A DNA stretch of 64,000 nucleotides from Algibacter amylolyticus (lineage in GTDB: Bacteria > Bacteroidota > Bacteroidia > Flavobacteriales > Flavobacteriaceae). The DNA lies in assembly GCF_014202225.1 (NCBI RefSeq), contig NZ_JACHGE010000002.1:366636-430635 (forward strand), written 5' to 3'. A model generated the notes under the pieces. It was not told the DNA's origin. It was given only the letters and a program-made list of their open reading frames with translations, and made no database searches. This document shows, piece after piece, positions 2,492-42,471 of the stretch (its first letter is position 1; each line of letters begins with the position of its first letter). A program made the translations under genes and the position numbers.

Positions 2492-2583
2492 GGGCGTTAC
2501 CCATAAAGGGTCGGGCTTTACAATACAAGTCCTCGCACTTTCTTCGTCAGGCTGTGGGCTTTCCTTTGCAATCCCTAACGCAA
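2492..2583 (+). repeat. Dispersed structured repeat, copy 1
   Basis: About 92 bp. The closing helix GCGTTA (2494-2499) pairs with TAACGC (2576-2581). Inside are a short hairpin ACCC/GGGT (2499-2511) and a longer arm, AAGTCC (2527-2532) with GGGCTT (2556-2561). It shares conserved segments (TCGGGCTTT, CAAGTCCTCGCAC, GCTGTGGGCT, CAATCC) with copies at 9511, 17995 and 42312. It lies between two minus-strand genes. Confidence 0.8.
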
Positions 2584-2625
2584 GCTTAGGCTAATTAGTA
2601 ACACAGCATAAGTTTTAATGTTATA

Positions 2626-4227
2626 CTATTTGGTAATAACTTTTTTATAAATAGTATTACCAATATTTAAATAATATAGCCCTTTAGGTAGGCTATTAAT
2701 ATTAATTTTTTCGTTGTTAGAAATAGATCCTTGTTTTACTGCTTTCCCTAAAGTATCATATAAGCTATAACTAAGCGTTTCCGAAATTCCAGAGATTTGT
2801 ATAAAGTTATTAGATGGATTAGGAAAAATACGAATAGATGAGTTTTTAACTTCAGTATTAACCGAAAGCGTGCTACAAGTAGTAGTTCCTTGAATTTCTG
2901 TGTAAGTTGGGTTATACCCATTATTGAAAACGTTATATTCAGCTTCCGATATTTGCCCCGGATCTGTATCTCCAATTAAAGAGCCAATGGCACAGTATTC
3001 TTCAAGTTCAATATTAGTATTTATATTTAAGTTTCTAGCAACGGACGTAAGATTATCCAAACCGTTTAATGAGGTAAGTGCATCATTTTGAAAAATTTGA
3101 ACATCTTCGCCTATGGTGGTTAAATTAGTTAAACCATTAAAAGAAACAAGGGCATGATTATCCCAAACCCAAAAACTTGTTGCTACGGTAGTAAGTGAAT
3201 TTAAGCTATTAAAAGCAGTAAGAGATTGATTGTTTCTAACTCTAAAAAATCGGCCAACAGTAGTAAGTGCATCTACGCCACTTAAAGTAAGAAGAGAGTC
3301 GTTTCTATACACATAAAAATAATCGCCAACAGTAGTAAGCGCATCTAATCCGTTTAAAGATGTAAGACTATCGTTGTTGTCTATAAAAAAATTACCTCCA
3401 ACCGTTGTTAAATTATCTAAACCGCTTAAAGAAGTTAGTGCAGCGTTACTTTGTATAAATACTTCACCACCAATGGTATTAATGCTAGTTAAAGTATTTA
3501 GGTTAGTAATATCATTTGGTGTGGCTTCAGTAACTACTAAACTTCCTGTTATATTTGATTGCGTAATAGAAAAGGCATCAACTTCAGCTTGACTAGTTAG
3601 TATAATACTTCCAGCATAAACGGTAGCCGTAGATGTAATACTGCAATCGGTCATATTTTGTATTTCTGTATAAGTGGGGTTGTAACCATTTCCAATTAAA
3701 ACATATTCTTCTGCCGAAATTTGTCCTGTTCCATCTCCAAATAAACCTGAAATAGTACAAAGGTTAGTTAGGCTATAATTTCTATCAAGATCTAATTCGC
3801 CACCTACCGATGTTAGAGCATCCAAACCACTTAATGTGGTAAGCGCTGTATTTCTAGAAATGTTCAAATTGATACCTATCGATATAAGATTATCTAAACC
3901 ACTTAAAGAGGTAATTGTGGTATTAGAATCTACCTGTAAAATTTGGCCAACAGAAACAAGTGCTTCCAATCCGTTTAAGGACGTAAGCTGCTTATTTCCA
4001 AAAATTCTTAAAGTACCACCCACCTGTGTAAGTGTACTTAACCCATTAAGATTTACAATTTCTCCATCTAAAGTTTCATCAATAAAAAGGTTGCCGGTTA
4101 CTTCAGTATAAGTAAAGGCATCAATTTCTGCTTGCGTGGTTAGTGTAAGATTGCCTGTGTAAGTGTTTTGGGCGAATCCTAAATAGGTAAATAATAAGAA
4201 TAAAATAGTAGTGTTTAGTTTTATCAT
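2626..4227 (-). CDS. Secreted leucine-rich-repeat-like protein with T9SS sorting domain
   Basis: 533 residues. A signal peptide (MIKLNTTILFLLFTYLGFAQ) is followed by two homologous blocks of about 180-250 residues. Both begin with a T.QAE.DAF segment, carry a ladder of short repeats (TSLSGLDNLTTVGG, LNGLDALTTVGD) and end with GNGYNPTYTEIQ or NNGYNPTYTEIQ plus a Cys. This is an internal duplication of a receptor-L-domain/LRR-like solenoid. The last ~70 residues (IRIFPNPSNNFIQI to KKVITK) are a type A T9SS sorting domain. The protein is therefore predicted to be exported and surface-anchored or released. Its binding partner is unknown. It is the downstream neighbour of the alginate lyase on the same strand but 115 bp away, so co-transcription is possible, not shown. 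Confidence 0.85.
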   Translation of the reverse strand: MIKLNTTILFLLFTYLGFAQNTYTGNLTLTTQAEIDAFTYTEVTGNLFIDETLDGEIVNLNGLSTLTQVGGTLRIFGNKQLTSLNGLEALVSVGQILQVDSNTTITSLSGLDNLISIGINLNISRNTALTTLSGLDALTSVGGELDLDRNYSLTNLCTISGLFGDGTGQISAEEYVLIGNGYNPTYTEIQNMTDCSITSTATVYAGSIILTSQAEVDAFSITQSNITGSLVVTEATPNDITNLNTLTSINTIGGEVFIQSNAALTSLSGLDNLTTVGGNFFIDNNDSLTSLNGLDALTTVGDYFYVYRNDSLLTLSGVDALTTVGRFFRVRNNQSLTAFNSLNSLTTVATSFWVWDNHALVSFNGLTNLTTIGEDVQIFQNDALTSLNGLDNLTSVARNLNINTNIELEEYCAIGSLIGDTDPGQISEAEYNVFNNGYNPTYTEIQGTTTCSTLSVNTEVKNSSIRIFPNPSNNFIQISGISETLSYSLYDTLGKAVKQGSISNNEKININSLPKGLYYLNIGNTIYKKVITK

Positions 4228-4342
4228 TGGTAAAATGATTAGTTTTTAAATAGTATTTAGTTAAGATTAAGCGAAGCGTTTTGGCTTAAACCAAAATTTA
4301 AGTTGTTTTAAAATAGATTTGTTTTTTTAGAACTATGGAGAG

Positions 4343-5431
4343 TTAGTCATTTTTATCAAAATACTCTTGGTTAGATACCGAGGCATCACTAATTCTTAAA
4401 CTTGCTGTTTTAAACCATACCTCGGCATAATTACCATCCGCATATTGTTTTTCAAGATCGCCTTCATGAGTTTCGGCTCCAGAACACCAGTTTTTGTTTA
4501 TTTCTGGCGATTTACCATTGGTTTGGTTGTAACAGCCTAATTTAAAAAATAAACCTTCGCCTGTGTATGCTTCTTGGCGTTCCACACCATCTTGCCCCAG
4601 AGGAACAAATAATTTTTGGGTTTGTTCAGGTATGTCGGCAGTTGCGGTGTATTCAGATTCTATTAAGTTTTTTGTAAATGTTTTTGTGTCGTGCCCTTTG
4701 CTCGAGAAGGTTAGTGTCATAATACCGTTTACGACTTCTATTTCATAACTAAATTCTTCACCTAAAGCAATACCATCTTTTGGTTCTTCTGGATACGTAT
4801 TAACCTCAGTTCCAACAACAGAAAAATCGTTACCCCAAACAGCCGAAGAATAATCCCATCGTCCAGAATTATCATCGCCAGCGGTATTAATTTCATAATG
4901 CCAAAATACCGATCCTTTTGTATGGCCTGGGAATTTTTTGTAAAATATTTTAAGCGGTTCGTTTTCGTGTTTATCGGCACTATGAATTTGTCCAACTACC
5001 ACAGCATGTGTAGCTGCTACACGCGCATCACCAGTAGTAGAAACATTCATAACCTTAAGCGTTGCCGTTAATTTATCGTTAGCTGTTTTAGGATAAAACT
5101 TTTTTACCTGTGCTAATTCTGTTCTAATATTGTTCGATGTCCCGTGGGTATCGCCAGCATTAGGAGCCTTAAAAACTACCCAATTATTTTCGCCATCATT
5201 TTCAGTATAGAAAAAATCTTTATGCTCAAAATTTATTGCTTTTCCAACGTTAGAGCCATCACCTAAAATCAATTTCCAATCGTTAAAAAAAGGAATAACT
5301 TCGCTGGCATAAATAGTTTTTTCTGTTTCTACTGTTTCAGTTTTTTTAGCACCGTTGTTACAGCTACTTAATATTAAGAATGTACTAAAAACTAACCATG
5401 TGGATAGAGGTGCTATAAATTTTTTATTCAT
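4343..5431 (-). CDS. Alginate lyase, polysaccharide lyase family 7, lipoprotein
   Basis: Depolymerises alginate by beta-elimination. The N-terminus is a lipoprotein signal ending at the lipobox LSSC (Cys24), so the enzyme should be membrane-anchored. The three PL7 signature motifs appear in order: RTELAQV (R103), QIHS (Q148, H150) and FFKLGCYNQ (residues 295-303, catalytic Tyr301). At 362 residues it is a single-domain PL7 plus linker. No SusC/SusD pair, second lyase or uronate-metabolism gene is nearby, so it is not part of a visible polysaccharide utilisation locus. Specificity for mannuronate or guluronate cannot be decided firmly; QIH rather than QVH is often linked to polyG or polyMG preference. 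Confidence 0.88.
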   Translation of the reverse strand: MNKKFIAPLSTWLVFSTFLILSSCNNGAKKTETVETEKTIYASEVIPFFNDWKLILGDGSNVGKAINFEHKDFFYTENDGENNWVVFKAPNAGDTHGTSNNIRTELAQVKKFYPKTANDKLTATLKVMNVSTTGDARVAATHAVVVGQIHSADKHENEPLKIFYKKFPGHTKGSVFWHYEINTAGDDNSGRWDYSSAVWGNDFSVVGTEVNTYPEEPKDGIALGEEFSYEIEVVNGIMTLTFSSKGHDTKTFTKNLIESEYTATADIPEQTQKLFVPLGQDGVERQEAYTGEGLFFKLGCYNQTNGKSPEINKNWCSGAETHEGDLEKQYADGNYAEVWFKTASLRISDASVSNQEYFDKND

Positions 5432-5572
5432 TTTTGTTATAGATATTACGTTAGTTAAAATGTTGTTTTATTGAAGTCTGTCGATGTTAACAAAGTTATC
5501 GTTTTTTTCTCTTGGACAGCCAAGTATCTTGATTATTTCAATTTTCAACGGTCTCAATTATCATAAAATGAG

Positions 5573-5580
5573 TATTTTTG
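5573..5580 (+). promoter_or_regulatory. Candidate -7 box of the DUF4294 operon
   Basis: TATTTTTG matches the Bacteroidota -7 consensus TAnnTTTG and lies 28 bp upstream of the ATG at 5609. No convincing TTG is seen at the -33 position. Confidence 0.4.
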
Positions 5581-5608
5581 GCATAATAAAAGTCCCATTG
5601 TTTATTGC

Positions 5609-6286
5609 ATGAAATACTTAAAATACATACTTATATTTTTCCCAGTCTTACTCTTCGCCCAAATAGAAGAAATTAAGCAGGATTCTGTGTCTGAAAAGTA
5701 CCTAATTATTAAAGGTGATTCGGTACCCAGAACATCTATAGATTTAGATGAAGTCATGCTATTACATAGATTGGAGTTTAATAGTAAAAAGGACAGAATT
5801 AGATATTTAATTCTACGCCGTAAAACCATTAAAGTATATCCGTATGCTAAAATGGCTGCCGAACGATTAGATTCTATGAACTCGCGCATGCTGACGCTCA
5901 CTAAAAACCGAGATAAAAAACGTTACACCAAGCGCGTACAAAAGTATATTGAAGGTGAGTTTTCTGAAGAATTAAAAAAAATGACCCGTACCGAAGGGCA
6001 GATTTTGGTAAAGCTCATTCACAGGCAAACCGGTGTAACGGCTTTCGAGCTTGTTAAAGAACTGCGTAACGGTTGGCGAGCCTTTTGGTATAATACAACA
6101 GCAAGTATGTTCGATATTTCTTTAAAACGTGAGTACGACCCAGAAAACGAAAAAGAAGATTATTTAATTGAAGATATTTTACAACGAAATTTTCAAAGCG
6201 GACGCTTGGAACAACAAAAATCGGCAATCGAATTTGATTTTTACGATTTAACCAATAAATGGGTGCATCAAAAAACTCCTGAATAA
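5609..6286 (+). CDS. DUF4294 domain-containing protein
   Basis: 225 residues. A signal peptide (MKYLKYILIFFPVLLFAQ) indicates export to the periplasm or envelope. The rest is a charged, largely helical domain with the recognisable DUF4294 core (RRKTIKVYPYAKMAAERLD through LVKLIHRQTG and ELRNGWRAFWYNTTA). Function is unknown; the family is conserved in Bacteroidota. The stop codon abuts the ATG of the TrhA-like gene with no gap, and the GNAT gene overlaps that one, so the three form a tight operon. Confidence 0.8.
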   Translation: MKYLKYILIFFPVLLFAQIEEIKQDSVSEKYLIIKGDSVPRTSIDLDEVMLLHRLEFNSKKDRIRYLILRRKTIKVYPYAKMAAERLDSMNSRMLTLTKNRDKKRYTKRVQKYIEGEFSEELKKMTRTEGQILVKLIHRQTGVTAFELVKELRNGWRAFWYNTTASMFDISLKREYDPENEKEDYLIEDILQRNFQSGRLEQQKSAIEFDFYDLTNKWVHQKTPE

Positions 6287-6913
6287 ATGCGTATTCAATC
6301 GCCATTCGAAGAGAAACTAAACAGTATAACCCATGCTTTGGGTGCCTTATTTGGAGTTGTTGCCTTGGTATTACTTTTAACACACAATACCAATAAAACA
6401 GATTGGAGTTTGTTTAGTGTTATACTTTACGGCCTTTCTATTGTTATTTTGTTTTTAGCCTCTACATTTTATCATGCTGTAAAACAGGAGCGCTATAAAC
6501 ACTATTTTAGGATTGCAGATCATATTAGTATTTATTTCTTAATAGCCGGAACATACACACCGGTATGTTTAATTTCGTTAGATGAATCCTTAGGTTGGAT
6601 TCTTTTTTTTATAGTTTGGGGTATTGCAGCTTTTGGCGTTATTTTAAAGTTGTTTTTTACAGGAAGGTTCGAGCTTTTCTCCACTTTATTGTATTTAGTA
6701 ATGGGTTGGCTAATTGTTTTCGATTTTTCAAACCTCGCTAACCAAATAGGAGAACAAGGCATTTTTTGGTTGTTTGCAGGCGGTATGGCTTATACCGTTG
6801 GTATTGTGTTTTACGCCATTGATAAAATACCGTACAATCATGTTATTTGGCACTTGTTTGTTTTGGCAGGAGCCGTTTTTCACTTTTTAATGATTTTTAA
6901 TTATGTTATTTGA
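6287..6913 (+). CDS. Hemolysin III / TrhA family membrane protein (PAQR superfamily)
   Basis: 208-residue integral membrane protein with about seven hydrophobic segments. It has the PAQR/HlyIII landmarks: NSITHALGALFG near the N-terminus, STFYHAV after the second helix, and WHLFVLAGAVFHF at the end, which supply the three conserved His of the putative zinc site. The family name is historical. Members are linked to membrane fluidity homeostasis, and hydrolase activity is proposed but not shown here. It starts directly after the DUF4294 stop and overlaps the next gene by 11 bp. Confidence 0.88.
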   Translation: MRIQSPFEEKLNSITHALGALFGVVALVLLLTHNTNKTDWSLFSVILYGLSIVILFLASTFYHAVKQERYKHYFRIADHISIYFLIAGTYTPVCLISLDESLGWILFFIVWGIAAFGVILKLFFTGRFELFSTLLYLVMGWLIVFDFSNLANQIGEQGIFWLFAGGMAYTVGIVFYAIDKIPYNHVIWHLFVLAGAVFHFLMIFNYVI

Positions 6914-7412
6914 TAGAATAAAAATTGAAATAGCTAACACCACCAAAGATTACCACCAAATTGAAAAATTAGCAGATGTTATTTGGCGCGAGCATTATAT
7001 TCCTATTGTTGGTAAGCCACAAATAGATTACATGCTAGAAAAATTTCAATCGGTAAAACCTATTACAGAGCAAGTTGAAAATGGCTATACATATTATATT
7101 TTAAAATTCGAAGGCGTTTCCGTTGGCTATATCTCCATAAAGAAGGAAACCGATGCTTTATTTTTAAGTAAAATTTATGTACTGAGTACTTATAGAGGAA
7201 AAAAAATAGGGAAGACGGCCATGGCTTTTGTTGAGGATAAAGCTAAACAGTACGAGCTTAATAAAATAAGATTAACTGTAAATATTCATAATACAAATTC
7301 AATTAAAGCCTATGAAAAACTAGGGTTTAAAAATATCGGGCCTATTGTTGCCGATATTGGAAATGGTTTTATTATGGACGATTATGAGATGGTTAAACAA
7401 ATACCTGCGTAG
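6903..7412 (+). CDS. GNAT family N-acetyltransferase
   Basis: 169 residues. The GNAT acetyl-CoA loop is visible (LSTYRGKKIGKTAMAFVE), followed by the C-terminal strand-helix (VNIHNTNSIKAYEKLGFKNIG). The substrate amine is unknown. The start overlaps the TrhA-like gene by 11 bp, which suggests translational coupling. The last residues (Ile-Pro-Ala) and the TAG stop are supplied by a short palindromic repeat at 7404-7417, so the repeat appears to have replaced the original 3' end of the gene. Confidence 0.85.
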   Translation: MLFDRIKIEIANTTKDYHQIEKLADVIWREHYIPIVGKPQIDYMLEKFQSVKPITEQVENGYTYYILKFEGVSVGYISIKKETDALFLSKIYVLSTYRGKKIGKTAMAFVEDKAKQYELNKIRLTVNIHNTNSIKAYEKLGFKNIGPIVADIGNGFIMDDYEMVKQIPA

Positions 7413-7417
7413 GCAGG
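7404..7417. repeat. Small palindromic repeat CCTGC-GTAG-GCAGG, copy 1
   Basis: Left arm CCTGC (7404-7408), loop GTAG, right arm GCAGG (7413-7417) followed by AAT. It overlaps the end of the GNAT gene and contains its stop codon. Related copies lie at 7483 and 11000. Confidence 0.7.
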
Positions 7418-7482
7418 AATCTCATCAATACACCTAGAATTAAGTTTTTAAGTAAGTATTGTAAAAGCGTTTTCCATGTATC

Positions 7483-7504
7483 AGATTCCTGCGTTGGCAG
7501 GAAT
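7483..7504. repeat. Small palindromic repeat ATTCCTGC-GTTG-GCAGGAAT, copy 2
   Basis: An 8-bp perfect stem with a 4-nt loop, between the convergent GNAT and DUF4268 genes, 3' of both. It may act as a bidirectional transcript end, although there is no long T run. Confidence 0.75.
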
Positions 7505-7505
7505 A

Positions 7506-7934
7506 TTATCCCTCAATAACCTCTTTATATTCCTCGAAAAAAGCCTCAAACAAGCTCATGTGTGTATTAAAAAACACCATAACATCTTGCCAGGAGTTTT
7601 TGTTATGTATCGATACTTTTTGCTCTAAAGGCACGTAAATTCTAGAAATCTCTTTTTTGTTTTCTAAAAAATATTCTTCGTCGTAAATAGCTTCAGGAAG
7701 ATAATCGTCTAATAAAATCGATTTTAAAGCCACTAGTTTTTCCCAATATTTAATGCGGTGTTCTAAATCGTCCTCAAGATCTAGAGCTACTAAAGCCGTT
7801 CTATTATCAAAATGAAATTTAAAACTAAAGCCTTTTAGTTTGGTATCGTACAATACCCATTTCCGTGGAAACGATTTTCCAAAGCTGGTCCAAAATTCTT
7901 CTCTTAAACGTCTTGATTCTTCTTTGCTAAACAT
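7506..7934 (-). CDS. DUF4268 domain-containing protein
   Basis: 142 residues from the ATG at 7934 (MFSKEESRRLREEFW). A GTG three codons upstream (7943) would add MFL but is less likely. The protein matches the small DUF4268 family of Bacteroidota: LREEFWTSFGKSFPRKWVLYDTK, then KGFSFKFHFDNRTALVALDLE. Some larger DUF4268 proteins are linked to restriction-type nucleases, but this stand-alone form has no nuclease motif that I can see. It is soluble with no signal peptide. Function unknown. Confidence 0.75.
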   Translation of the reverse strand: MFSKEESRRLREEFWTSFGKSFPRKWVLYDTKLKGFSFKFHFDNRTALVALDLEDDLEHRIKYWEKLVALKSILLDDYLPEAIYDEEYFLENKKEISRIYVPLEQKVSIHNKNSWQDVMVFFNTHMSLFEAFFEEYKEVIEG

Positions 7935-8008
7935 TAAAAACACTGTTTTTTTTCATTCAATTACAATCTTGAATGCTTCCGTCATCCGTTACCCACCTTC
8001 CGTCTTTT

Positions 8009-8683
8009 TTAAATCATATAAGCCACCGCTACACCTAATATAATCGAAATAAACTTCGAGAAATTAAACTTATGTCCGTCGCCACTTTCAAACAAAATGG
8101 TAGTCGAAATATGGAAAAATATACCAATAACTACAGCGTTTATCATGTGTGCGTAATCGGCAAGAAACGTCGAGTTATGCGAAATCCAAGTACCTAAAGG
8201 TGTCATAAAAGCAAAAGCCACTAAAAAGCCACCAATTTGTAATTTCGTGTAGTTGGATTGTAATAAAAACATGGTAATTAAAGTCGCAATAGGTATTTTA
8301 TGCACTAGAACGCCATAAACCATATCATTATGGTCGTGTATAGAAAAGCCTTCTAAAAAGCTATGTATACACAAACTAATAAATAATAGCCAAGGGAAAA
8401 TAGTTTTGTTTTTATGGATATGTACATGCCCATGTTCGGCACCTTTCGAGAATAATTCCAATACAATTTGCAGCATAATACCGCACATTATAAAAAGTCC
8501 AGTAAGTTTTGTGTCTAAATGGTTGTACACTTCCGGAAGCAATTCAAAAAGCGTTAACGCTAATAAAAAAGCACCACTAAAAGAAAGTAATAGCTTGGTG
8601 TTCCACGATTTTTGCTTTTTGGTTATAAGCGCTAAAATAAAACCTAAAACTACCGCCAATAAAGGTAAAAGAAACTTATCCAT
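8009..8683 (-). CDS. ZIP family divalent metal transporter
   Basis: 224-residue membrane protein with about eight hydrophobic helices. The ZIP family metal-site helices are clear: HSFLEGFSIHDHND in the fourth and LVHKIPIATLITMF in the fifth. A His-rich cytoplasmic loop (EHGHVHIHKNK) lies between helices 3 and 4, typical of zinc or iron importers. It most likely brings Zn(II) or Fe(II) into the cytoplasm; specificity is not readable. It is a single gene on the minus strand, 65 bp upstream of the DUF4268 gene. Confidence 0.88.
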   Translation of the reverse strand: MDKFLLPLLAVVLGFILALITKKQKSWNTKLLLSFSGAFLLALTLFELLPEVYNHLDTKLTGLFIMCGIMLQIVLELFSKGAEHGHVHIHKNKTIFPWLLFISLCIHSFLEGFSIHDHNDMVYGVLVHKIPIATLITMFLLQSNYTKLQIGGFLVAFAFMTPLGTWISHNSTFLADYAHMINAVVIGIFFHISTTILFESGDGHKFNFSKFISIILGVAVAYMI

Positions 8684-8768
8684 TCAAAAAAAATACTATT
8701 CAAATTTAAAACTCAATCTAAAATAATCCGTAACAGTCAAAATAATTTGGTGTCACATACGGTTTGAC

Positions 8769-9500
8769 TTATTTAAAAATCATCACTAAGCGTTCCGATG
8801 TTTTAGGGCTAAATTTTCTCAATTTATAGTCACCAAAAACCTCCAATAAATACACGCCAGCCTGTTCAAAAAGCAATTCAAAATCCGCTAAAGTAAACCC
8901 ACGAACGCGCTCCTGGAAATTATAAAACTTATCATCGGCCGTAAAAGTAATATCTTTTATAATATATCCATCTTCAACAAAGCGTTTTAAATGAAAATCG
9001 ATGCCATCAACAGTTTTAATTTCCTCGGGCACCAAATTGTCAATAACAAACTCACTATTCATAAAATCAATTACCCCAAAACCAAATTCATTTAACTCCT
9101 CTTTAATAGATTTTATGGTTTTTAAATTATCGGCATCATCCTCAAAATAGCCAAAACTAGTAAACAAATTAAAAACCGCATCAAACTCCTTATGGTATGG
9201 TTTACACATGTTGTGCACATCAAATTTAAGGCGGTGGTTTTCAAACTGTTTAGCAAATTTAATGCTGTTTTCGCTTAAATCTACACCTGTAACATCATAC
9301 CCAATTTTATTAAGGTATAAGGCGTGTCTGCCTTTTCCACAAGCCAAATCAAGTATAGTGCCGCCCTCCGGAATATTCAAATAATCCGTTAAAGTTTCCA
9401 TAAAAGCTTGCGCCTCTGTGTCGTCCCTGTCCTTGTATAAAATGTGGTAATATGGCGTGTCAAACCAAGAAGAAAACCAAGTCGTTGTGTTATTAGTCAT
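8769..9500 (-). CDS. Class I SAM-dependent methyltransferase
   Basis: 243 residues with a standard Rossmann methyltransferase core. Motif I is ILDLACGKGRHALYL, followed by the acidic VTGVDLSENSI end of strand 2. AVFNLFTSFGYF forms motif IV with an unusual FTSFGYF stretch shared by small-molecule methyltransferases of this subgroup. No extra domain reveals the substrate. The start MTNNTTTWFSSWFDTPYYH is the usual beginning of this family. Its 5' end faces a dispersed repeat and the divergent rRNA methyltransferase gene. Confidence 0.85.
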   Translation of the reverse strand: MTNNTTTWFSSWFDTPYYHILYKDRDDTEAQAFMETLTDYLNIPEGGTILDLACGKGRHALYLNKIGYDVTGVDLSENSIKFAKQFENHRLKFDVHNMCKPYHKEFDAVFNLFTSFGYFEDDADNLKTIKSIKEELNEFGFGVIDFMNSEFVIDNLVPEEIKTVDGIDFHLKRFVEDGYIIKDITFTADDKFYNFQERVRGFTLADFELLFEQAGVYLLEVFGDYKLRKFSPKTSERLVMIFK

Positions 9501-9510
9501 AGTGTTGTTT

Positions 9511-9607
9511 GGGGGTTACCACGCCCAAAAGCGCGGTCAGGCTTTTCGTTACAAGTCCTCGCACCAAAAAAGGTGCTGTGGGCTTTCCACTTCAATCCTT
9601 AACCCGG
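9511..9607 (+). repeat. Dispersed structured repeat, copy 2
   Basis: The closing helix GGGTTA (9513-9518) pairs with TAACCC (9600-9605); both sides differ from copy 1 and pairing is kept. Hairpin P2 pairs ACC and CGC (9518-9524) with GCG and GGT (9531-9537), with one mismatch. Arm P3 pairs AAGTCC (9553-9558) with GGGCTT (9580-9585), with inner stem GCACC/GGTGC (9561-9565 and 9572-9576). It lies in the divergent gap between two methyltransferase genes. Confidence 0.85.
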
Positions 9608-9627
9608 ATTTATCAATAAACGTTATG

Positions 9628-9653
9628 TTTGCCGCAAAATTACGTTATTTTTG
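9628..9653 (+). promoter_or_regulatory. Candidate promoter of the rRNA methyltransferase gene
   Basis: TATTTTTG at 9646-9653 matches TAnnTTTG. A TTTG lies upstream at 9628-9631, but the 14-bp spacing is shorter than the usual 17-23. It would give a leader of about 175 nt. Confidence 0.35.
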
Positions 9654-9835
9654 CAATGTAATACCTAATGTAATTGGGTTTTTAGGTAATTTAGCGACAT
9701 TTATTTTTGTTTATAACAAGGCAGAATTTTTAAGCATAGCCTGAGTTACGGTTTAAAAATTTAAACAAGTTAAAAGCAAAAAGAAAAAGCAGAAAATTTA
9801 AAATTTAAGTTGCTTTACGTATAAAGACGAAAAAA

Positions 9836-10999: not shown

Positions 11000-11019
11000 A
11001 TTCCTGCGAAAGCAGGAAT
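11000..11019. repeat. Small palindromic repeat ATTCCTGC-GAAA-GCAGGAAT, copy 3
   Basis: A perfect 8-bp stem with a GAAA (GNRA-type) tetraloop, overlapping the last base of the methyltransferase stop codon. The same arms occur at 7483-7504 with a different loop (GTTG). The conserved arms with variable loops suggest that the hairpin, not the linear sequence, is maintained. Confidence 0.75.
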
Positions 11020-17855: not shown

Positions 17856-17994
17856 GCTGCAAAAATAATAATAGCCAGTAATAAAAACGGATTTATTTAG
17901 ATTAACTTTAAAGGAAATAATAATTCTTTTAAAATAAAATGAACCTTTTTAGTTTTTTAAGCTCGTTAGTGTATTGATATACTATAAGCTATTT

Positions 17995-18082
17995 GCGTTA
18001 GGGATTGAAATGAATAGCCCACAGCCTGACGCAGGAAGTGCGAGGACTTGTAATGTAAAGCCCGACCCTTGTGGTAACGCAC
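17995..18082 (-). repeat. Dispersed structured repeat, copy 3 (minus orientation)
   Basis: Read on the minus strand, GCGTTA (18080-18075) pairs with TAACGC (18000-17995). The internal blocks GGGTCGGGCTTTAC, CAAGTCCTCGCAC, GCTGTGGGCT and CAATCC match copy 1 nearly base for base. It lies in the divergent gap between rlmD and rocD. Confidence 0.85.
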
Positions 18083-18271
18083 AAATTAAGGGCAAAAGAA
18101 AAGCTGCATTAGTTGGGATACCAAGCAGCTTACCATTTTTAATAGAGGTTAAGTATTTATATATTTTTAAACGTAATACGTGTTTTATATTGTTTTAACT
18201 ATTTCTAGTTACTTATAAGACACATAAACATTTGAAACGTCACATATTTTTGTTTTTTTTTAATTAATTTC

Positions 18272-32586: not shown

Positions 32587-32780
32587 CTGCCTACATTGGT
32601 TATTTTTTTTGATAAACTCAACGTTAATTCTTTAAAAAGGGTGAGTTTAAGTTGTAAAAGCAAGCTGCTAGTACCAAATTTATTTTTGGTTACTCGAGCA
32701 GATCCTTGATCAGCTTGTTAGCCCTAAACTTGTTTTTAAGGAGTTTATACAAAACTTTATACTGGTGTAGGCTTTTTTAT
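32587..32780 (+). ncRNA. ssrS: 6S RNA (6S-Flavo type)
   Basis: The 297-bp gap between zapA and rny folds into one long rod. GCCTACATTGGT (32589-32600) pairs with ACTGGTGTAGGC (32761-32772) over 12 bp including G-U pairs. ATAAACTC (32612-32619) pairs with GAGTTTAT (32741-32748), CAAGCTG (32661-32667) with CAGCTTG (32711-32717), and an apical hairpin is ACCAAA/TTTGGT (32673-32690). Internal loops separate the helices, giving the open-promoter mimic of 6S RNA, and a T6 run ends the transcript. Position next to zapA supports this. The assignment is by structure and context; no covariance search was run. Confidence 0.75.
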
Positions 32781-34423: not shown

Positions 34424-34450
34424 AAAGAAAATTAAGATTATTTAATATAT

Positions 34451-34481
34451 AAAAAAGTCCAGTTTTAAACTGGACTTTTTT
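34451..34481. terminator. Shared terminator of rny and the convergent kinase
   Basis: AAAAAAGTCCAG (34451-34462) pairs with CTGGACTTTTTT (34470-34481). The right arm overlaps the last codons (Lys-Ser-Pro-Val-stop) of the kinase gene on the minus strand, so part of the hairpin is coding. Confidence 0.88.
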
Positions 34482-35637: not shown

Positions 35638-35761
35638 ATATAAAAGTTGTTATTATGTTAGTTTAATAAGATTTAGGGGATTGGTTTTTATAAATTTACA
35701 AATAATTAGCTGGAAATAAAAGAAATAGATGTAGTAGAGTTCTCTTTTTTTTTACTTTTTA

Positions 35762-36658
35762 TTAGTTTCTAGGGTGGTATTTCTCAACCACCTCGCTTAA
35801 ATGACTTTTATCTAAATGCACATAGATTTCAGTGGTAGTAATGCTTTCGTGTCCTAGCATAAGCTGAATAGAGCGTAAATCGGCATTATTTTGTAATAGA
35901 TGTGTGGCAAAAGAATGTCTAAAAGTATGTGGCGAAATATTTTTTTCTAACCCAATTTTCACCGCTAATTGTTTAATTATGGTAAAAATCATAGCGCGCG
36001 TTAACTGTTTACCTCGTCTGTTTAAAAATAAGGTATCCTCGTGCCCCGGTTTAATGTTTAAATGAACCCGAATACTAGTCCTATAAATATTTATATATTT
36101 TTTGGTAACATCTATAATAGGGACAAAACGCTGCTTGTCTCCTTTACCGGTAACTTTTATAAAGCCTTCATCAAAAAATAGGTCTGATATTTTTAGGTTT
36201 ATTAACTCGCTTACGCGCAACCCGCAACCATATAAGGTTTCTAACATGGCTCTATTACGTTCGCCTTCAGGCTTACTTAAATCAATAGCTTTTATTATTG
36301 TATCTATTTCGGCTTCCGATAGGGTGTCTGGTAGTTTCCTTCCTATTTTGGGAGATTCAATTAATTCTAACGGATTGTCCTTTCGGTAATCTTCAAATAC
36401 TAAATAATTAAAAAAACTGCGCAGGCCAGATATTATTCTAGATTGCGATCTAGCATTAACAATTTTAGCAATCTCATAAATAAATTGTTGAATAAGCTCT
36501 GAGGTAATGTTAACAGGCGTATGGTTTATGTTATTAGCTTCAACAAAATTTATAAGCTTCGTGACGTCCAAGGCATAATTATCGATAGAATTTTGCGATA
36601 ACCCGCGTTCTATCTTTAAATATAGTTGGTAATCGTTTAAAGCGTGTTTCCATTTCAT
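35762..36658 (-). CDS. xerD: Tyrosine recombinase XerD
   Basis: 298 residues. An N-terminal SAM-like domain (YLKIERGLSQNSIDNYALDV) is followed by the catalytic domain with Arg in YGCGLRVSELINLK, Lys in VTGKGDKQRFVP, HTFRHSFATHLLQ, LGHESITTTE and Tyr in EIYVHLD. It resolves chromosome dimers at dif with its partner. In this clade xerD often faces aroQ; here two beta-barrel genes lie between them. The length and full catalytic set indicate housekeeping XerD rather than an integrase. Confidence 0.88.
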   Translation of the reverse strand: MKWKHALNDYQLYLKIERGLSQNSIDNYALDVTKLINFVEANNINHTPVNITSELIQQFIYEIAKIVNARSQSRIISGLRSFFNYLVFEDYRKDNPLELIESPKIGRKLPDTLSEAEIDTIIKAIDLSKPEGERNRAMLETLYGCGLRVSELINLKISDLFFDEGFIKVTGKGDKQRFVPIIDVTKKYINIYRTSIRVHLNIKPGHEDTLFLNRRGKQLTRAMIFTIIKQLAVKIGLEKNISPHTFRHSFATHLLQNNADLRSIQLMLGHESITTTEIYVHLDKSHLSEVVEKYHPRN

Positions 36659-36878
36659 AGTTGTAAAAGTAACTATTTATAGGTGCAATGTGTAGTTTTT
36701 TTATGCAATACGGTTAAATTATTAGCTAGAATTGTTAATAAGTTGAATCTTAAAACATTTAATTACAGTGTTTTACGAAATATTGTTGACAAAATTGTTA
36801 ATAACATTGGTGTATTTGTAGTATTTTTCAAAAATTTAGCTTTAATTTGCTGTAATCAAACTAAAAACATTTTAAATT

Positions 36879-37385
36879 ATGAAAAAATTATTTTTATGCG
36901 CTGCTATTGCAGTATTCGGATTAACAAGCGTTAGTGCTCAAAACTTTGGTTTAAAAGCAGGGGCTGATTTTGCTTCTATGAAGTTTAAAGCTGAAGGAGC
37001 AAGTGTTTCCACTTCAGAAACTGGCTTTTATATTGGAGCTTTTGCTGATATTGATGTTTCAGAATCATTTGTGTTTCAACCTAGTGTTATGTATGTTTCT
37101 ATTGATGAATTAGATCAAATCGCTATTCCTCTTATGGCTAAAATTCCTGTTTCGGAGGAGTTTAGTGTTTTAGCTGGTCCTAGTTTAGGGATTTTGCTTG
37201 ATACAGGAGAAGGTGTAAAGTCGTTAAATTTTGGTGTTGAAGCTGGAGCTGCATACGACATTTCTGAGCAGTTTTTTGTTGAAGCTAGATATAGTTTAGG
37301 TTTAGCTAACTTAATTGAAGATGCTCCAAGTGGGTATTCTTCTAAATTAAGTGGTTTTTTCGTTGGCGTAGGTTATAAGCTATAA
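36879..37385 (+). CDS. Small outer-membrane beta-barrel protein
   Basis: 168 residues. A signal peptide (MKKLFLCAAIAVFGLTSVSAQ) is followed by an eight-stranded OmpA/OmpX-like barrel (FGLKAGADFASMKFK, TGFYIGAFADIDVSESFVFQPSVMY, FFVEARYSLGLAN) ending in FFVGVGYKL. It shares signal peptide and layout with the gene at 37627, so the two are probably paralogues. A possible promoter is TTTG (36815-36818) with TTAATTTG (36842-36849). A terminator follows. Confidence 0.78.
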   Translation: MKKLFLCAAIAVFGLTSVSAQNFGLKAGADFASMKFKAEGASVSTSETGFYIGAFADIDVSESFVFQPSVMYVSIDELDQIAIPLMAKIPVSEEFSVLAGPSLGILLDTGEGVKSLNFGVEAGAAYDISEQFFVEARYSLGLANLIEDAPSGYSSKLSGFFVGVGYKL

Positions 37386-37400
37386 ATTTAAGTATTTAAT

Positions 37401-37435
37401 AAAAAAAAGGGAAGTTAATAGCTTCCCTTTTTTTT
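37401..37435 (+). terminator. Terminator of the first beta-barrel gene
   Basis: AAAAAAAAGGGAAG (37401-37414) pairs with CTTCCCTTTTTTTT (37422-37435) around the loop TTAATAG. The same loop and inner GAAG/CTTC pairs occur in the terminator at 38269. Confidence 0.88.
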
Positions 37436-37581
37436 TATGCAGTAAACTGAAATAAAAGCACTTAAAAGATAAAATAAATAGTACTTGGTTTTTAGTAAAA
37501 ATATCCTTAAAAGCGCTTATTTAATCGATGAAATGCATTATATTTTAACATTTTATAGACTTCTACTACAGTTCTAAAAAT

Positions 37582-37589
37582 TAGATTTG
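37582..37589 (+). promoter_or_regulatory. Candidate -7 box of the second beta-barrel gene
   Basis: TAGATTTG matches TAnnTTTG, 37 bp upstream of the ATG at 37627. The -33 region (TTC at 37561) is imperfect. Confidence 0.4.
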
Positions 37590-37626
37590 CCACCGAAATT
37601 ATTCAAACAATCAAACTTAAACAATT

Positions 37627-38247
37627 ATGAAAAAATTATTAATTATTGCTGCGGTTGCAGTATTCGGATTATCAAATGTAAATGCTCAAGATGATGCAAA
37701 AGCTTATGGATTTAATGAAGGTGATGTCTTTTTAGAAGGTAACATCGGATTTAGTAGTACTAATGACAAAAACTTTGATGAAAAAACAAACAGTTTTACA
37801 ATTGCTCCTAAAGTTGGTTTCTTTTTAAATGAAGATTTAGCTATTGGAGGTCAATTAACTTTTAATTCATTTAAAGAAGAAGTTTCAGGAACTGATACTG
37901 TTGATAACTCTACATTTGGTGCTGGAGTGTTTGCTCGTTACTACTTTTTAGATTTAGGACAACGTTTTAAAACGTTTACTGAGTTTGGTATTGCTTATGC
38001 TACTAGTGATAATAAAATTAGCGACTTTAAAGTTAACGCTATTGGTGCTAGTTTAGACTTAGGTATTAACTATTTTGTAACAGAAAAAATTGCTTTAACT
38101 TTTGGTTTAAGAAACGTATTAGGTTTCACATCTACAAAGGCTGATGTTGATGGAGCTAAAGCAGAATCTAATTTTAACTTAGGATTTGGAGATGTTGCTA
38201 ACCCTTTTAGTGGTAATGCTTCTTTTGGTTTATTATACAAATTATAA
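37627..38247 (+). CDS. Outer-membrane beta-barrel protein
   Basis: 206 residues. The signal peptide (MKKLLIIAAVAVFGLSNVNAQ) is nearly that of the gene at 36879. The barrel strands are clear (VFLEGNIGFSSTNDKNF, FTIAPKVGFFLNEDLAIGGQLTF, FGAGVFARYYFLDLGQRFKTFTEFG, IALTFGLRNVLGF), with a final FGLLYKL. It is probably an abundant surface barrel of unknown ligand. It carries its own promoter box and terminator. Confidence 0.8.
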   Translation: MKKLLIIAAVAVFGLSNVNAQDDAKAYGFNEGDVFLEGNIGFSSTNDKNFDEKTNSFTIAPKVGFFLNEDLAIGGQLTFNSFKEEVSGTDTVDNSTFGAGVFARYYFLDLGQRFKTFTEFGIAYATSDNKISDFKVNAIGASLDLGINYFVTEKIALTFGLRNVLGFTSTKADVDGAKAESNFNLGFGDVANPFSGNASFGLLYKL

Positions 38248-38268
38248 TAAACATACCAAAATAATAGA

Positions 38269-38302
38269 AAAAAAAACCGAAGTTAATAGCTTCGGTTTTT
38301 TT
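38269..38302 (+). terminator. Terminator of the second beta-barrel gene
   Basis: An A run and CCGAAG (to 38282) pair with CTTCGG and a T run (38290-38302) around the loop TTAATAG. Relative to the terminator at 37401 the outer GGG/CCC pairs are exchanged for CC/GG while the loop is kept. Confidence 0.88.
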
Positions 38303-38330
38303 ATGCTCATTTTTTAAATATCTTTACTAC

Positions 38331-38744
38331 ATGAAAAAACTAATCATAATAAACGGTCCTAATTTAAATCTATTAGGAAAGAGAGAACCTAATATTTACG
38401 GAAGTTTGTCTTTTACAGAGTTTTTAGAAGAAGTGAAAGGTAAATACCCGGACGTCTCTATTGATTATTTTCAATCGAATATAGAGGGCGAATTAATAGA
38501 TAAATTGCATGAAGTCGGTTTTAATTTTGATGGTATTATTTTAAACGCAGCGGCTTATACACATACTTCTATTGGTATTGGCGATGCTATTAAAGCTATT
38601 GAAACGCCCGTTGTAGAAGTGCATATTTCAAATACGTTTAATCGCGAGGAGTTTAGGCATCAATCTTTTATTTCTCCTAATGCTAAGGGCGTTATTCTTG
38701 GCTTTGGCTTACAAAGTTACGAGTTGGCTATTCAGAGCTTTTAG
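38331..38744 (+). CDS. aroQ: Type II 3-dehydroquinate dehydratase
   Basis: 137 residues, complete for the small dodecameric type II enzyme that converts 3-dehydroquinate to 3-dehydroshikimate in aromatic synthesis. Landmarks: INGPNLNLLGKREPNIYG at the N-terminus (catalytic Tyr and Arg lid), FQSNIEGELIDKLHE, ILNAAAYTHTSI and VEVHISNTFNREEFRHQS. The start is 29 bp after the terminator of the beta-barrel gene. Confidence 0.93.
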   Translation: MKKLIIINGPNLNLLGKREPNIYGSLSFTEFLEEVKGKYPDVSIDYFQSNIEGELIDKLHEVGFNFDGIILNAAAYTHTSIGIGDAIKAIETPVVEVHISNTFNREEFRHQSFISPNAKGVILGFGLQSYELAIQSF

Positions 38745-38800
38745 AATAAGGATGTAATTAGCTTCCTTGAAAGGTGAAAAGCACTAAATAAAAACCATGT

Positions 38801-38834
38801 AAAAAATGCGATTCAGTTTTGAATCGCATTTTTT
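38801..38834 (+). terminator. Terminator after aroQ (34-bp unit, copy 1)
   Basis: AAAAAATGCGATTC pairs with GAATCGCATTTTTT around AGTTTT. The identical 34 bp recur at 39407-39440. Confidence 0.88.
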
Positions 38835-38908
38835 ATTATAAAATTTTTAAGATAAATTTAAATAATATAGTTTAGGTTTGTGTAGTATTAAATTTACAAT
38901 TCTGTGCT

Positions 38909-39406
38909 GTGAGAGGAAACTTAATTATTTTATGGATAATCTGTCCTTGTTTTTGCAATGTTAATGGGCAAGAAAGTGATACTAAAAAGGAAGCGTCGTT
39001 TAACATTAGTAATGAGGTTAATATTAATAACGAAGTCTTACCCTTCGCTACCTACTTTTCAGAATATAATATAAGTAAAAACTGGATTTTAAGAGCTGAA
39101 AACGTGCAAACTAACTTTGGTGGTTTTAGTACAAATTATATGGTAAAAGATTTTCCTTTACTGGTAAAATATAGCATTAGTAATAAGTTTCATGTTTTGT
39201 TTGGGCCAACATTAAATTTATTACTCGTAAACGGAACGGTAGAAGAGGTAAGCCCATCCGGAACCTTAGGTGTACAATACGAGTTTAACGAATCGTTTTT
39301 AATGGATGCGAGGTTTAATTATAACTTAGAAAGTGAGAATTCTTTTAAAACCAGTATGCCAACTACTAATTCGATTTTAAAGTTGGGTGCTAAATATAAA
39401 TTCTAA
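38909..39406 (+). CDS. Small outer-membrane beta-barrel-like protein
   Basis: 165 residues from a GTG start at 38909. The hydrophobic N-terminus (LIILWIICPCFCNVNGQ) is a signal peptide, possibly lipoprotein-like because it has two Cys. Beta strands follow (LPFATYFSEYNISKNWILRAENV, KFHVLFGPTLNLLLVNG, FLMDARFNYNLES), ending in LGAKYKF with a terminal Phe. It is flanked on both sides by the same 34-bp terminator. No family name recognised. The GTG start is supported because no in-frame ATG exists before the mature part. Confidence 0.65.
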   Translation: MRGNLIILWIICPCFCNVNGQESDTKKEASFNISNEVNINNEVLPFATYFSEYNISKNWILRAENVQTNFGGFSTNYMVKDFPLLVKYSISNKFHVLFGPTLNLLLVNGTVEEVSPSGTLGVQYEFNESFLMDARFNYNLESENSFKTSMPTTNSILKLGAKYKF

Positions 39407-39440
39407 AAAAAATGCGATTCAGTTTTGAATCGCATTTTTT
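39407..39440. terminator. Terminator (34-bp unit, copy 2), between convergent genes
   Basis: Identical to 38801-38834. It begins at the base after the stop of the beta-barrel gene and also lies 23 bp beyond the stop of the minus-strand lpd gene, so it may serve both. Confidence 0.88.
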
Positions 39441-39463
39441 ATATCGTTTAAACGTTTATAGTC

Positions 39464-40840
39464 TTATAAATGTATTACTTCGTCATAAGCAGCTGCAACA
39501 GCTTCCATTACCGCTTCACTCATTGTAGGGTGAGGGTGAATAGCTTTTAATACCTCGTGACCTGTAGTTTCAAGTTTACGTCCTAAAACAGCTTCAGCAA
39601 TCATATCGGTAACTCCAGCACCAATCATGTGGCAACCTAACCATTCGCCATATTTGGCATCAAAAATAACTTTTACAAAGCCTTCTTTATTTCCACCAGC
39701 ACTGGCTTTACCAGAAGCAGAGAACGGGAATTTACCAACTTTAATATCTAAACCTTTATCCTTTGCTTGCTTTTCAGTTAATCCAACCGATGCAATTTCA
39801 GGAGAACAATATGTACAACCTGGTATGTTTCCGTAGTCTATAGCTTCAACATGCATTCCTGCAAGTTTTTCTACACATAGTATCCCTTCCGCGGAAGCGA
39901 CATGAGCTAAAGCTTGACCAGGAGTAACATCTCCAATAGCATAATAACCAGGAATGTTAGTTTGGTAAAAATCGTTAACAATAATTTTATCCCTATCAAC
40001 AACAATGCCTACATCTTCTAAACCAATGTTTTCAATATTAGATTTAATACCAACGGCACTTAAAATAATATCTGCTTCAAGTACTTCTTCACCCTTACTT
40101 GTTTTTACTGTTGCTTTAACACCTTTTCCAGAAGTATCAACCGATGTTACTTCGGCCGATGTCATAACTTTAATTCCAGATTTTGTGAAAGAACGCTCTA
40201 ATTGCTTAGATACATCATCATCCTCAACAGGAACAATTTTTGGTAAATACTCTACTATAGTAACTTCTGTACCAATAGAGTTATAAAAATATGCAAATTC
40301 AACACCAATAGCACCAGATCCAACCACAATCATTTTCTTTGGTTGTTTCTTTAAGGTCATGGCTTGTCTGTATCCAATTACCTTTTTGCCATCTTGTGGT
40401 AAACTTGGTAACTCACGAGAACGTGCACCAGTTGCAATTATAATATTGTTAGCGCTATATTCGGTACCATCAACTTCAACCTTTTTACCAGGTTTTAGTG
40501 TTCCGTAACCTTCTATAACATCAATTTTATTCTTCTTCATTAAAAACTGAACACCTTTGCTCATACCATCTGCAACCCCACGGCTACGTTTTACAACAGC
40601 ATCAAAATCATGTTCTGCATCTTTTACTTTTAAACCATAGTCCTCAGCATGCTTTAGGTATTCAAAAACCTGAGCCGATTTTAATAAAGCTTTTGTTGGA
40701 ATACAACCCCAGTTTAAGCATACGCCACCAAGATTTTCTTTTTCAACAATAGCGGTTTTAAAACCTAATTGTGATGCTCTAATAGCTGTTACATAACCAC
40801 CAGGACCACTTCCAAGAACAATAATATCGTATTTACTCAT
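39464..40840 (-). CDS. lpdA: Dihydrolipoyl dehydrogenase
   Basis: 458-residue E3 subunit of the 2-oxoacid dehydrogenase complexes; it reoxidises dihydrolipoamide with NAD+. The FAD site is VLGSGPGGYVTAIRA, the redox disulfide is C41/C46 in GGVCLNWGCIPTK, and the NAD site is VVGSGAIGVEFAYF. The C-terminal HPHPTMSEAVMEA supplies the catalytic His-Glu pair. No E1 or E2 gene is adjacent, which is common. The length is typical. Confidence 0.93.
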   Translation of the reverse strand: MSKYDIIVLGSGPGGYVTAIRASQLGFKTAIVEKENLGGVCLNWGCIPTKALLKSAQVFEYLKHAEDYGLKVKDAEHDFDAVVKRSRGVADGMSKGVQFLMKKNKIDVIEGYGTLKPGKKVEVDGTEYSANNIIIATGARSRELPSLPQDGKKVIGYRQAMTLKKQPKKMIVVGSGAIGVEFAYFYNSIGTEVTIVEYLPKIVPVEDDDVSKQLERSFTKSGIKVMTSAEVTSVDTSGKGVKATVKTSKGEEVLEADIILSAVGIKSNIENIGLEDVGIVVDRDKIIVNDFYQTNIPGYYAIGDVTPGQALAHVASAEGILCVEKLAGMHVEAIDYGNIPGCTYCSPEIASVGLTEKQAKDKGLDIKVGKFPFSASGKASAGGNKEGFVKVIFDAKYGEWLGCHMIGAGVTDMIAEAVLGRKLETTGHEVLKAIHPHPTMSEAVMEAVAAAYDEVIHL

Positions 40841-41019
40841 TTGTTAAAAAGTTTAGAATGCGAATTTACGAAATCGATTTTTAAAAAAGAATAGAGAACT
40901 TATTAAATCCAAAAAAAAATATTAAGTAATATCCATTATGTAATTGTTGTTTTGTAACCTTATAATAAGGAATAGAATCTGTACTTGTTTTATTACCTTT
41001 GCGCTGCAAGTTTTTATTT

Positions 41020-42303
41020 ATGAACATACCTAGAACGAGTTTTCCTCGCATTGTAATTATTGGCGGTGGTTTTGCAGGCGTTGCCTTAGCAAAAAAATTA
41101 TCTAAACAAGAAGTGCAAGTTGTACTTTTAGATAAAAATAACTATCACACCTTTCAGCCTTTACTTTACCAAGTATCTACAGGTGGTTTAGAGCCAGACT
41201 CTATTGCTTACCCTATTCGTAAAATTTTAAAAGACTTTCCAAATTTTTATTTTCGATTAGCAGATGTCGAGGAGATAGATACTCAAAAAAACAAGGTAAA
41301 AACCAATATAGGTAACTTAAAATTCGATTATTTAGTAGTGGCTTCGGGATCTACAACAAACTTTTTTGGCAATACCGAAGTCGAAAGACACAGTATGGCC
41401 ATGAAAACCATACCGCAGTCTTTAGATTTAAGAAGTTTAATTCTCGAAAATTTTGAAGATGCTCTTTTAACCTCAGATTTAAACGAGCGTAACGCTTTAA
41501 TGAATTTTGTAATTGTAGGTGGCGGACCAACAGGCGTAGAGCTTGCCGGTGCATTGGCCGAAATAAAAAAAGGCATCTTGCCAAAAGATTATCCAGATTT
41601 AGATACGCGTTTGGCTCAAATTCATATCGTGCAATCTAGCAATTGCATATTAAAAGGTATGAGCGCGCAAGCCTCGGCAAAGGCAGAAGATTTTCTAGAA
41701 AAACTAGGCGTTAACGTATGGAAAAACGTTAGAGTAACCAATTACGATGGCAAAACGGTTACCACAAATACCGATTTAACCTTCGAAACCGCCACTCTAG
41801 TTTGGGCGGCAGGCGTAAAAGGAGCCACCATAAAAGGTCTAGATGCGCAAGATCTTGTTAGCCGTGGCAACAGGCTTTTGGTAAACGAGTTTAACCAAGT
41901 AAAAGGCTATAACCACATATTTGCTATTGGCGATATTGCCTGCTTGGTAAGTGATGAGTTTCCGCATGGTTTCCCAATGATGGCACAACCTGCCATACAA
42001 CAAGGCGACCAATTAGGCGATAATATTTTAAAACTTATTGAAAACCAACATATGGAGCCCTTTAGCTATACCGACAAAGGTGCTATGGCAACAATTGGAC
42101 GAAATAAAGCCGTAGTCGATTTAAAACGATGGAAATTTCAAGGCGTATTTGCTTGGTATGTTTGGATGTTTGTACACCTGTTTTTCCTAATAGGTTTCAG
42201 AAACCGAATGGTGGTGTTTGTAAATTGGGTGTATAATTATGTTCGTTTCGACAGGGAAGCCCGATTAATAATTCGTCCCTTTAAAAACAAACATAAAGTA
42301 TAA
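41020..42303 (+). CDS. Type II NADH dehydrogenase (NDH-2)
   Basis: 427 residues from the ATG at 41020 (MNIPRTSFPRIVIIGGGFAG). An in-frame extension to 40999 is not needed. Two dinucleotide folds are present: VIIGGGFAGVALAKKL (FAD) and FVIVGGGPTGVELAGALAE (NADH). The quinone-site motif region is QPAIQQGDQLGDNI, and a C-terminal membrane segment (WYVWMFVHLFFLIGF) anchors it. It passes electrons from NADH to menaquinone without pumping. A box TACCTTTG (40994-41001) is a possible -7 element. Confidence 0.88.
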   Translation: MNIPRTSFPRIVIIGGGFAGVALAKKLSKQEVQVVLLDKNNYHTFQPLLYQVSTGGLEPDSIAYPIRKILKDFPNFYFRLADVEEIDTQKNKVKTNIGNLKFDYLVVASGSTTNFFGNTEVERHSMAMKTIPQSLDLRSLILENFEDALLTSDLNERNALMNFVIVGGGPTGVELAGALAEIKKGILPKDYPDLDTRLAQIHIVQSSNCILKGMSAQASAKAEDFLEKLGVNVWKNVRVTNYDGKTVTTNTDLTFETATLVWAAGVKGATIKGLDAQDLVSRGNRLLVNEFNQVKGYNHIFAIGDIACLVSDEFPHGFPMMAQPAIQQGDQLGDNILKLIENQHMEPFSYTDKGAMATIGRNKAVVDLKRWKFQGVFAWYVWMFVHLFFLIGFRNRMVVFVNWVYNYVRFDREARLIIRPFKNKHKV

Positions 42304-42311
42304 TAACCTTT

Positions 42312-42471
42312 GGGCGATTTCAGAAGAAAAATCGGGTCAGGCTTTACTCATCGGTTTATATTTTTAATATATTAAATCGTGAATATAAATATTTCAGCAG
42401 TCGCTTTTTTGTGTTGCATACGTGCAACAACACAAAAAGAACTTCAACAAATGCCTCAATCCTTATCGCGG
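42312..42471 (+). repeat. Dispersed structured repeat, copy 4 (expanded)
   Basis: The outer helix is GCGAT (42314-42318) with ATCGC (42465-42469), a different sequence from copies 1-3 with pairing kept. A small hairpin is TTTC/GAAA (42318-42329). The central arm is replaced by a much longer one with TTTTTGTGTTG pairing to CAACACAAAAA. Conserved blocks GGGTCAGGCTTTAC and CTCAATCC remain. It begins 9 bp after the NDH-2 stop. Confidence 0.7.

Follow-up and report, generated by a model that had tools for sequence, protein, structure and literature searches.

Dispersed folded repeats of Algibacter amylolyticus are full-length, modular relatives of Flavo-1 that keep their sites and differ in their interiors

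The Flavo-1 family (Rfam RF01705) appears in Table 1 of PMC2864571 (2010) as a probable RNA of Bacteroidetes, with an 'n' for cis-regulatory, and in the part of PMC9029176 that concerns it the family is counted with the most abundant families of small RNAs and is given no function. For Flavobacterium psychrophilum, the section of PMC9723704 dealing with Flavo-1 places its matches in the sense or the antisense of transcribed regions alike, with many outside them, and reports that several 5' transcribed regions coincide with such matches. Among the literature titles covered, a set that leaves out most subscription papers, none besides the Flavo-1 papers concerns the repeats described here. In this work we have analysed a window of 64,000 nucleotides (nt) from Algibacter amylolyticus (contig NZ_JACHGE010000002.1, positions 366,636 to 430,635, forward strand), which holds four copies of a dispersed, structured repeat, and have followed this repeat through its own genome, its genus and the Bacteroidota. 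Our results show that these repeats are relatives of Flavo-1, modular and of full length, read on the reverse complement. A sequence-only reading of the window had known no accepted name for them; RF01705, which matches their opposite strand, supplies one.

The structure that best fits the covariation is a nested rod of helices P1-(P2)-P3-P4-P5, in which P3 joins the first GGGCTx to the last xATCCC and P4 joins AAGTCC to the second GGGCTT; the RNAalifold prediction largely agrees with it. P3 carries one fixed G-A mismatch, and two GNA/GNA internal loops flank a helix of 2 base pairs. Our covariance model, R1, was built from 42 aligned own-genome copies without large insertions, other core-bearing copies with insertions or odd ends being omitted, and in this alignment columns 31 and 84 form UA in 29 copies and AU in 13, with no broken pair. 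The sequence-only reading had paired the inner arms locally, which does not agree with this covariation: local hairpins (the first GGGCTT with AAGTCC, the second GGGCTT with AATCCC) were rejected, since they collect 33 double-change cells against 43 for the nested rod and break in 13 of 42 copies at columns 31-40 and in 14 of 42 at columns 75-84, the second count being the fairer one as column 40 was fixed by copy selection. When 53 own copies were read on the opposite strand and the 2-base-pair helix was added, 97.2% of 1272 cells were paired (0 of 500 shuffles as high), double changes occurred at 10 of 24 pairs (reached by 1 of 500 shuffles) and double-change cells numbered 93 against a shuffle mean of 25.6 (reached by 0 of 500), with shuffles that ignore the relatedness of the copies. 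Sliding the partners by 1-3 columns left at most 7 such cells. The compensatory changes recur on many backgrounds; the outer P2 pair is unpaired in 8 of the 53 copies. The compensatory pairing claimed earlier for the closing helix is thus borne out, and the larger alignment, together with slow divergence at orthologous sites (15 of 29 sites, see below), supports the earlier view of a selected folded nucleic acid rather than a simple insertion.

Only one strand folds, and it is the strand opposite to the one on which we describe the repeats, the same as the Flavo-1 strand. We parsed 81 elements from the own genome, 21 from the closest congener (G002) and 89 from other Bacteroidota (from 136, 40 and 118 pieces, respectively), dropping those that could not be parsed and excluding two columns taken as unpaired; the G002 elements are largely orthologues of the own ones. 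Among the non-Watson-Crick pairs of the frame in these 191 elements, 38 are A-C on the described strand, one is G-T and 47 are neither. Since A-C on the described strand corresponds to a wobble pair on the opposite one, the folding strand is that of Flavo-1. A mutation bias is unlikely to have caused this skew, because substitutions at unpaired sites run the opposite way (on the Flavo-1 strand, C to T 4/318, A to G 0/742 and G to A 24/689).

The genome contains 58 occurrences of the block CAAGTCCTCGCAC and none of its reversed control. R1 finds at least 139 matches there at an expectation value (E) of 1e-4 or less and 145 at E of 1 or less, counts that are lower bounds, 150 of 939 candidates having been scored. 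One frame accommodates at least six interior modules: rough patterns sort the 120 own copies that have both ends into module I (72), II (18, with a module V copy tallied here), III (12), VI (9) and IV (3), with 6 copies outside the patterns. At some loci, near-equal interiors stand within different P1 arms whose pairing is kept, and P2 and the inner loop are able to host other dispersed palindromes. Palindromes of this kind (CACCCTTCGACTCCGCTCAGGACAGG, CCTGCCTGCCGGCAGGCAGG, CCTACAAGG..CCTTGCAGG and TCCCGAT..ATCGGGA) are nested in element loops at L008, L014, L043, L044, L046, L158 and other loci. Module VI has an insert of about 75 nt within the terminal stem (L172, L173, L174, L329, L332, L334, L336, L337, L339 and L340), and pieces like AATCTGTTAAATTATAG recur in some loci.

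Part of this set is linked to Flavo-1 directly, the rest by way of the common frame. At E 0.001 the Rfam model finds 77 matches in the own genome, some of them absent from the R1 list, and none in any of 14 control genomes. In a search of 20 chosen own-genome loci at E 0.05, matches were obtained at 14, all of them opposite to the described strand. Six exceed the Flavo-1 cut-off of 42 bits (L142, L147, L339, L343, L165 and L337, with 48.3-64.1 bits and module II, V or VI-like interiors); below it lie the module VI locus L174, with 38.4 bits, and seven module I or I-like loci with 28.7-38.0 bits. No match was found at this threshold in L145, L155, L160, L346 and L175 (modules III and IV) or in L015 (module I). 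Five Flavo-1 loci, when aligned, show the helices and loops of the Rfam model, and the strand of that model is the one indicated by the wobble pairs. Both have the same P3, mismatch, GNA loops, mini-helix and P4, but the model as printed lacks P1 and P2, which are present in these repeats, and module I, the commonest here, falls below the cut-off in the loci tried. Beyond the Rfam model lie P1 and P2, the modules, the one-strand wobble and the occupied sites with replaced interiors to which we now turn.

In G002, of which about 798,000 bases were used, both flanks were matched for 29 of the 120 own copies, and all 29 sites are occupied (25 by pattern and 4 by eye). By alignment reading, the interior is replaced at five of them (C1:884060, C1:1152867, C2:294869, C2:341756 and the poorly aligned C4:340222); at C1:1152867 both members of the pair 31-84 flip together. 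At two sites, C1:871838 and C1:986988, P2 or the P1-P2 junction alone is replaced. Donors for the replaced interiors were not found; the own set has 24 locus pairs with interiors at most 2 bases apart, the G002 stretches 1. At 15 unswapped sites the P1 and P3 stems changed at 3 of 330 bases (0.9%) and the remainder of the element at 28 of 1016, against 64 of 798 (8%) in the flanks (p = 2.6e-7 for the stems and 4.5e-7 for the rest; stems versus rest, p = 0.057), a size of constraint that is an upper estimate because conserved copies are favoured both by how the sites were chosen and by the anchor patterns; sites that were swapped, unanchored or of differing length or module label had been dropped. 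An outer frame that stays put while its inner hairpins swap between species looks new.

The sequence-only reading had placed four copies in the window, all intergenic, and these exist and are intergenic relative to the long open reading frames (ORFs); its quoted blocks and its P1 pairs (GCGTTA/TAACGC, GGGTTA/TAACCC and GCGAT/ATCGC) were also found as claimed. They are given here, with the parts of copy 1, by window position:

2491-2584, plus strand: copy 1, module I; R1 107.0 bits; Flavo-1 33.9 bits on the minus strand, below the cut-off.
2494-2498, plus strand: P1 left arm of copy 1, GCGTT, paired with 2577-2581; covariation in the family.
2499-2511, plus strand: P2 side hairpin of copy 1, ACCC/GGGT, from the family alignment.
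2513-2518, plus strand: P3 left arm of copy 1, GGGCTT, paired with AATCCC at 2570-2575 with one mismatch; columns 26-31 with 84-89.
2527-2532, plus strand: P4 left arm of copy 1, AAGTCC, paired with GGGCTT at 2556-2561; covariation in the family.
2570-2575, plus strand: P3 right arm of copy 1, AATCCC; covariation of the P3 columns.
2577-2581, plus strand: P1 right arm of copy 1, AACGC; covariation of the P1 columns.
9510-9608, plus strand: copy 2, module I with hairpin GCACC/GGTGC and the rare P1 GGGTTA/TAACCC; R1 72.2 bits; Flavo-1 38.6 bits on the minus strand, below the cut-off; interior differs between congeners.
17992-18083, minus strand: copy 3, module I; R1 108.6 bits; orthologous copy in G002.
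About 42309-42472, plus strand: copy 4, module IV, degenerate in its frame and carrying an AT-rich insertion; aligned with L175 and L116.
32616-32746, plus strand: 6S-Flavo RNA (RF01685), 103.3 bits.
58704-58791 and 58825-58899: two transfer RNA genes.

Copies 1 and 3 were in the R1 training alignment and copy 2 was not. Copy 4 is missed by R1 even at E 10 with filters off; we count it as a member of the family because its interior, apart from the AT-rich insertion and the worn frame, is almost letter for letter that of L175 and L116 of the own genome. It has an orthologue in G002, by an alignment judged by eye. The Rfam model search gives no Flavo-1 match for copies 3 and 4 at E 0.05. The earlier claim that P2 re-pairs across copies differs from what we see in copy 4, where P2 has probably decayed; in the congener, CCCGA/TCGGG stands at this place. 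Copies 2 and 3 are overlapped by short ORFs, of 95 and 74 amino acids, that look spurious. At the copy 2 site, congeners keep the rare P1 GGGTTA/TAACCC and the A-T variant of P3, and nine species show about six kinds of terminal domain between them, one belonging to a different module (the aligned piece starts inside the element in G008 and G009, and the tenth species, G003, has diverged). The copy 1 site carries module I in four species, a different interior in three and a worn copy in one, and in two the element is not recognisable. Copy 3, compared in two congeners, is present in G002 and not recognisable in G001.

Beyond this genome, R1 has matches in 10 of 10 genus genomes searched, the own included (38 to at least 71 per genome, the upper figure being as many as were scored), in 33 of 60 relatives and, with strict filters and 14 candidates scored in each, in 43 of 296 phylum genomes. 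The core pattern recovers at least 118 stretches, including ones from Flavobacterium, Algibacter, Pedobacter, Bacteroides and Rufibacter. Related copies occur in six viral contigs and in 77 plasmid records, at 60-80% identity in 76; the plasmid hosts are Bacteroides, Phocaeicola, Parabacteroides or Butyricimonas in 76 and Capnocytophaga in one. Phage records gave no match at E 0.1. Both the own genome and the phylum set have the 5' edge ATwATTTGG, which may mark an end of the element or reflect a preference for certain targets.

What, then, could these repeats be? We propose, giving the proposal about an even chance, that they are an ancient constrained element that acts through one folded strand, more probably as DNA than as RNA, and whose interiors are exchanged by recombination. 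The strand complementary to that of our description would be the working form, single and folded into a rod of P1, P2, P3 with its G-A mismatch, the GNA/GNA loops around the 2-base-pair helix and P4, ending in a hairpin domain that can be exchanged. Each site would keep its frame, whereas P2 and this terminal domain would give way to other hairpins or to interiors resembling those of other copies; recombination or gene conversion among the copies would be the simplest route. As DNA, the folded strand would become accessible during replication, repair or transfer, and a putative structure-specific protein would bind it; the element may originally have been the mobile form of a small non-autonomous element. 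Between RNA and folded DNA our leaning is to DNA, at close to even chances, because gene orientation is unbiased and a promoter excess is absent. In the 99 of 120 copies with enough flank, 4 of which overlap an ORF of at least 100 amino acids, the gene layouts are ++ in 31, +- in 26, -- in 24, -+ in 16 and one-neighbour in 2, with no orientation bias relative to genes; upstream of the copies promoter words number 11 against 10.4 in shuffles on the Flavo-1 strand and 10 against 7.9 on the other, with no excess on either.

Several observations weigh against this proposal. The outer P4 pair is unpaired in 11 of 53 copies, and a fixed P4 pair, T-G on the described strand, becomes A-C on the proposed one (42 of 42). 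Energy folding, compared with shuffles, shows no preference for the covariation fold on either strand (z from -1.6 to +0.8 as RNA in four copies and from -1.6 to -0.4 as DNA in three), and the G-A loops suit RNA equally well as DNA. On the Flavo-1 strand, 25 of 120 copies are followed by a run of at least five T (25-nt window), on the other strand 3 of 120 (20-nt window); both counts lack a shuffled control, and the runs could be read as RNA terminators. Along the longest contig a hand-compiled list shows no orientation pattern (28 versus 25, runs z -0.67), which gives no support for lagging-strand coupling. The constraint figure rests on 15 of 29 sites, the 14 dropped including every swapped site, and the anchor patterns favour the conserved P3. 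A clean empty site was not seen at the sites compared in congeners. Finally, no gene-bearing (autonomous) element was found in the spans examined: those from left to right end measure 20-139 nt, with 19 left ends lacking a right end in the piece examined, except for three of 1962, 2388 and 2415 nt, which we take to be elements with a right end that the pattern missed.

If the repeats are instead transcribed small RNAs or untranslated-region elements, as Rfam has it, folded from read-through or weak promoters, then the near-exclusive occurrence of wobble pairs on the Flavo-1 strand, the GNA/GNA loops and the T runs would find a ready place, as would the probable-RNA listing (PMC2864571, Table 1) and the coincidence with several 5' transcribed regions in the cited section of PMC9723704. 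The unbiased gene orientation, the absent promoter excess and, in that same section, the matches in either sense and often untranscribed speak against it, and we regard it as possible but doubtful. That movement as single strands by a Y1 transposase (RAYT) accounts for the repeats, as for REP-like or IS200/IS605-like non-autonomous elements, is improbable. High copy number, mostly intergenic position, a folded single strand and the conserved 5' edge would suit it, but a PF01797 search of the own genome finds one Y1 domain, inside an ORF that reads like a restriction-methylase; Y1 has no match in G007, G005, G026 and G012 despite at least 71, 38, 39 and 23 copies, respectively; and an element lies at one of the 30 Y1 loci examined, at its far end. 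We rejected the Y1 transposase as the mover because copy number is not tracked by Y1 matches. The Y1-bearing (IS200-like) ORF, at L056, has about 1300 codons, with frames of similar length in L312, L314 and L315 and Y1-domain open frames of 1074-1287 amino acids in congeners.

Compensation might also arise without selection, replication template switching or gene conversion copying one arm onto the other. Differing interiors at the same site in congeners and palindromes nested in element loops are what it would lead one to expect, but template switching should erase mismatches, yet the P3 mismatch and the GNA loops are kept in most copies, and conversion between differing copies would raise, not lower, the divergence of orthologues; we hold this to be very improbable. 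Our preferred reading of an element acting through one folded strand can also be carried further: Flavo-1 might not be an RNA family at all but a phylum-wide set of strand-specific folded DNA sites, with a frame at fixed positions and cassette-like interiors exchanged by a dedicated structure-recognising enzyme, which we think unlikely but worth stating. If most copies act as folded DNA, small-RNA annotations of Flavo-1 mislead; more than 100 copies per genome, constrained where this is measurable, would, if true, form a large feature of the chromosomes of Bacteroidota; and an exchange of interiors at fixed sites gives a way to search for the responsible enzyme.

Among known systems, REP elements have a GT(A/G)G head at their palindrome, according to the portion of PMC2817692 that describes them, and the REP/RAYT system depicted there resembles our repeats in its high copy number, its mostly intergenic position and its palindromes with complementary mutations. 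Our repeats differ in their length of about 92 nt, their multi-helix frame and their edge, ATwATTTGG without a GT(A/G)G head. REP counts are tabulated for two Flavobacterium species in PMC12306157 and may or may not include the present elements. A rayt gene between two inverted copies, as in REP/RAYT, was not found at the 30 Y1 loci.

In integron attC sites, one strand folds, with a conserved base, fixed unpaired features and a variable terminal structure, and there are conserved GTT/AAC core boxes. Our repeats are like them in their single folding strand, conserved base, fixed unpaired features and variable terminal structure. They differ in lacking conserved GTT/AAC boxes, with paired variation along P1: at position 7, T-A is found in 58, C-G in 22 and C-A in 1 of 81 elements.

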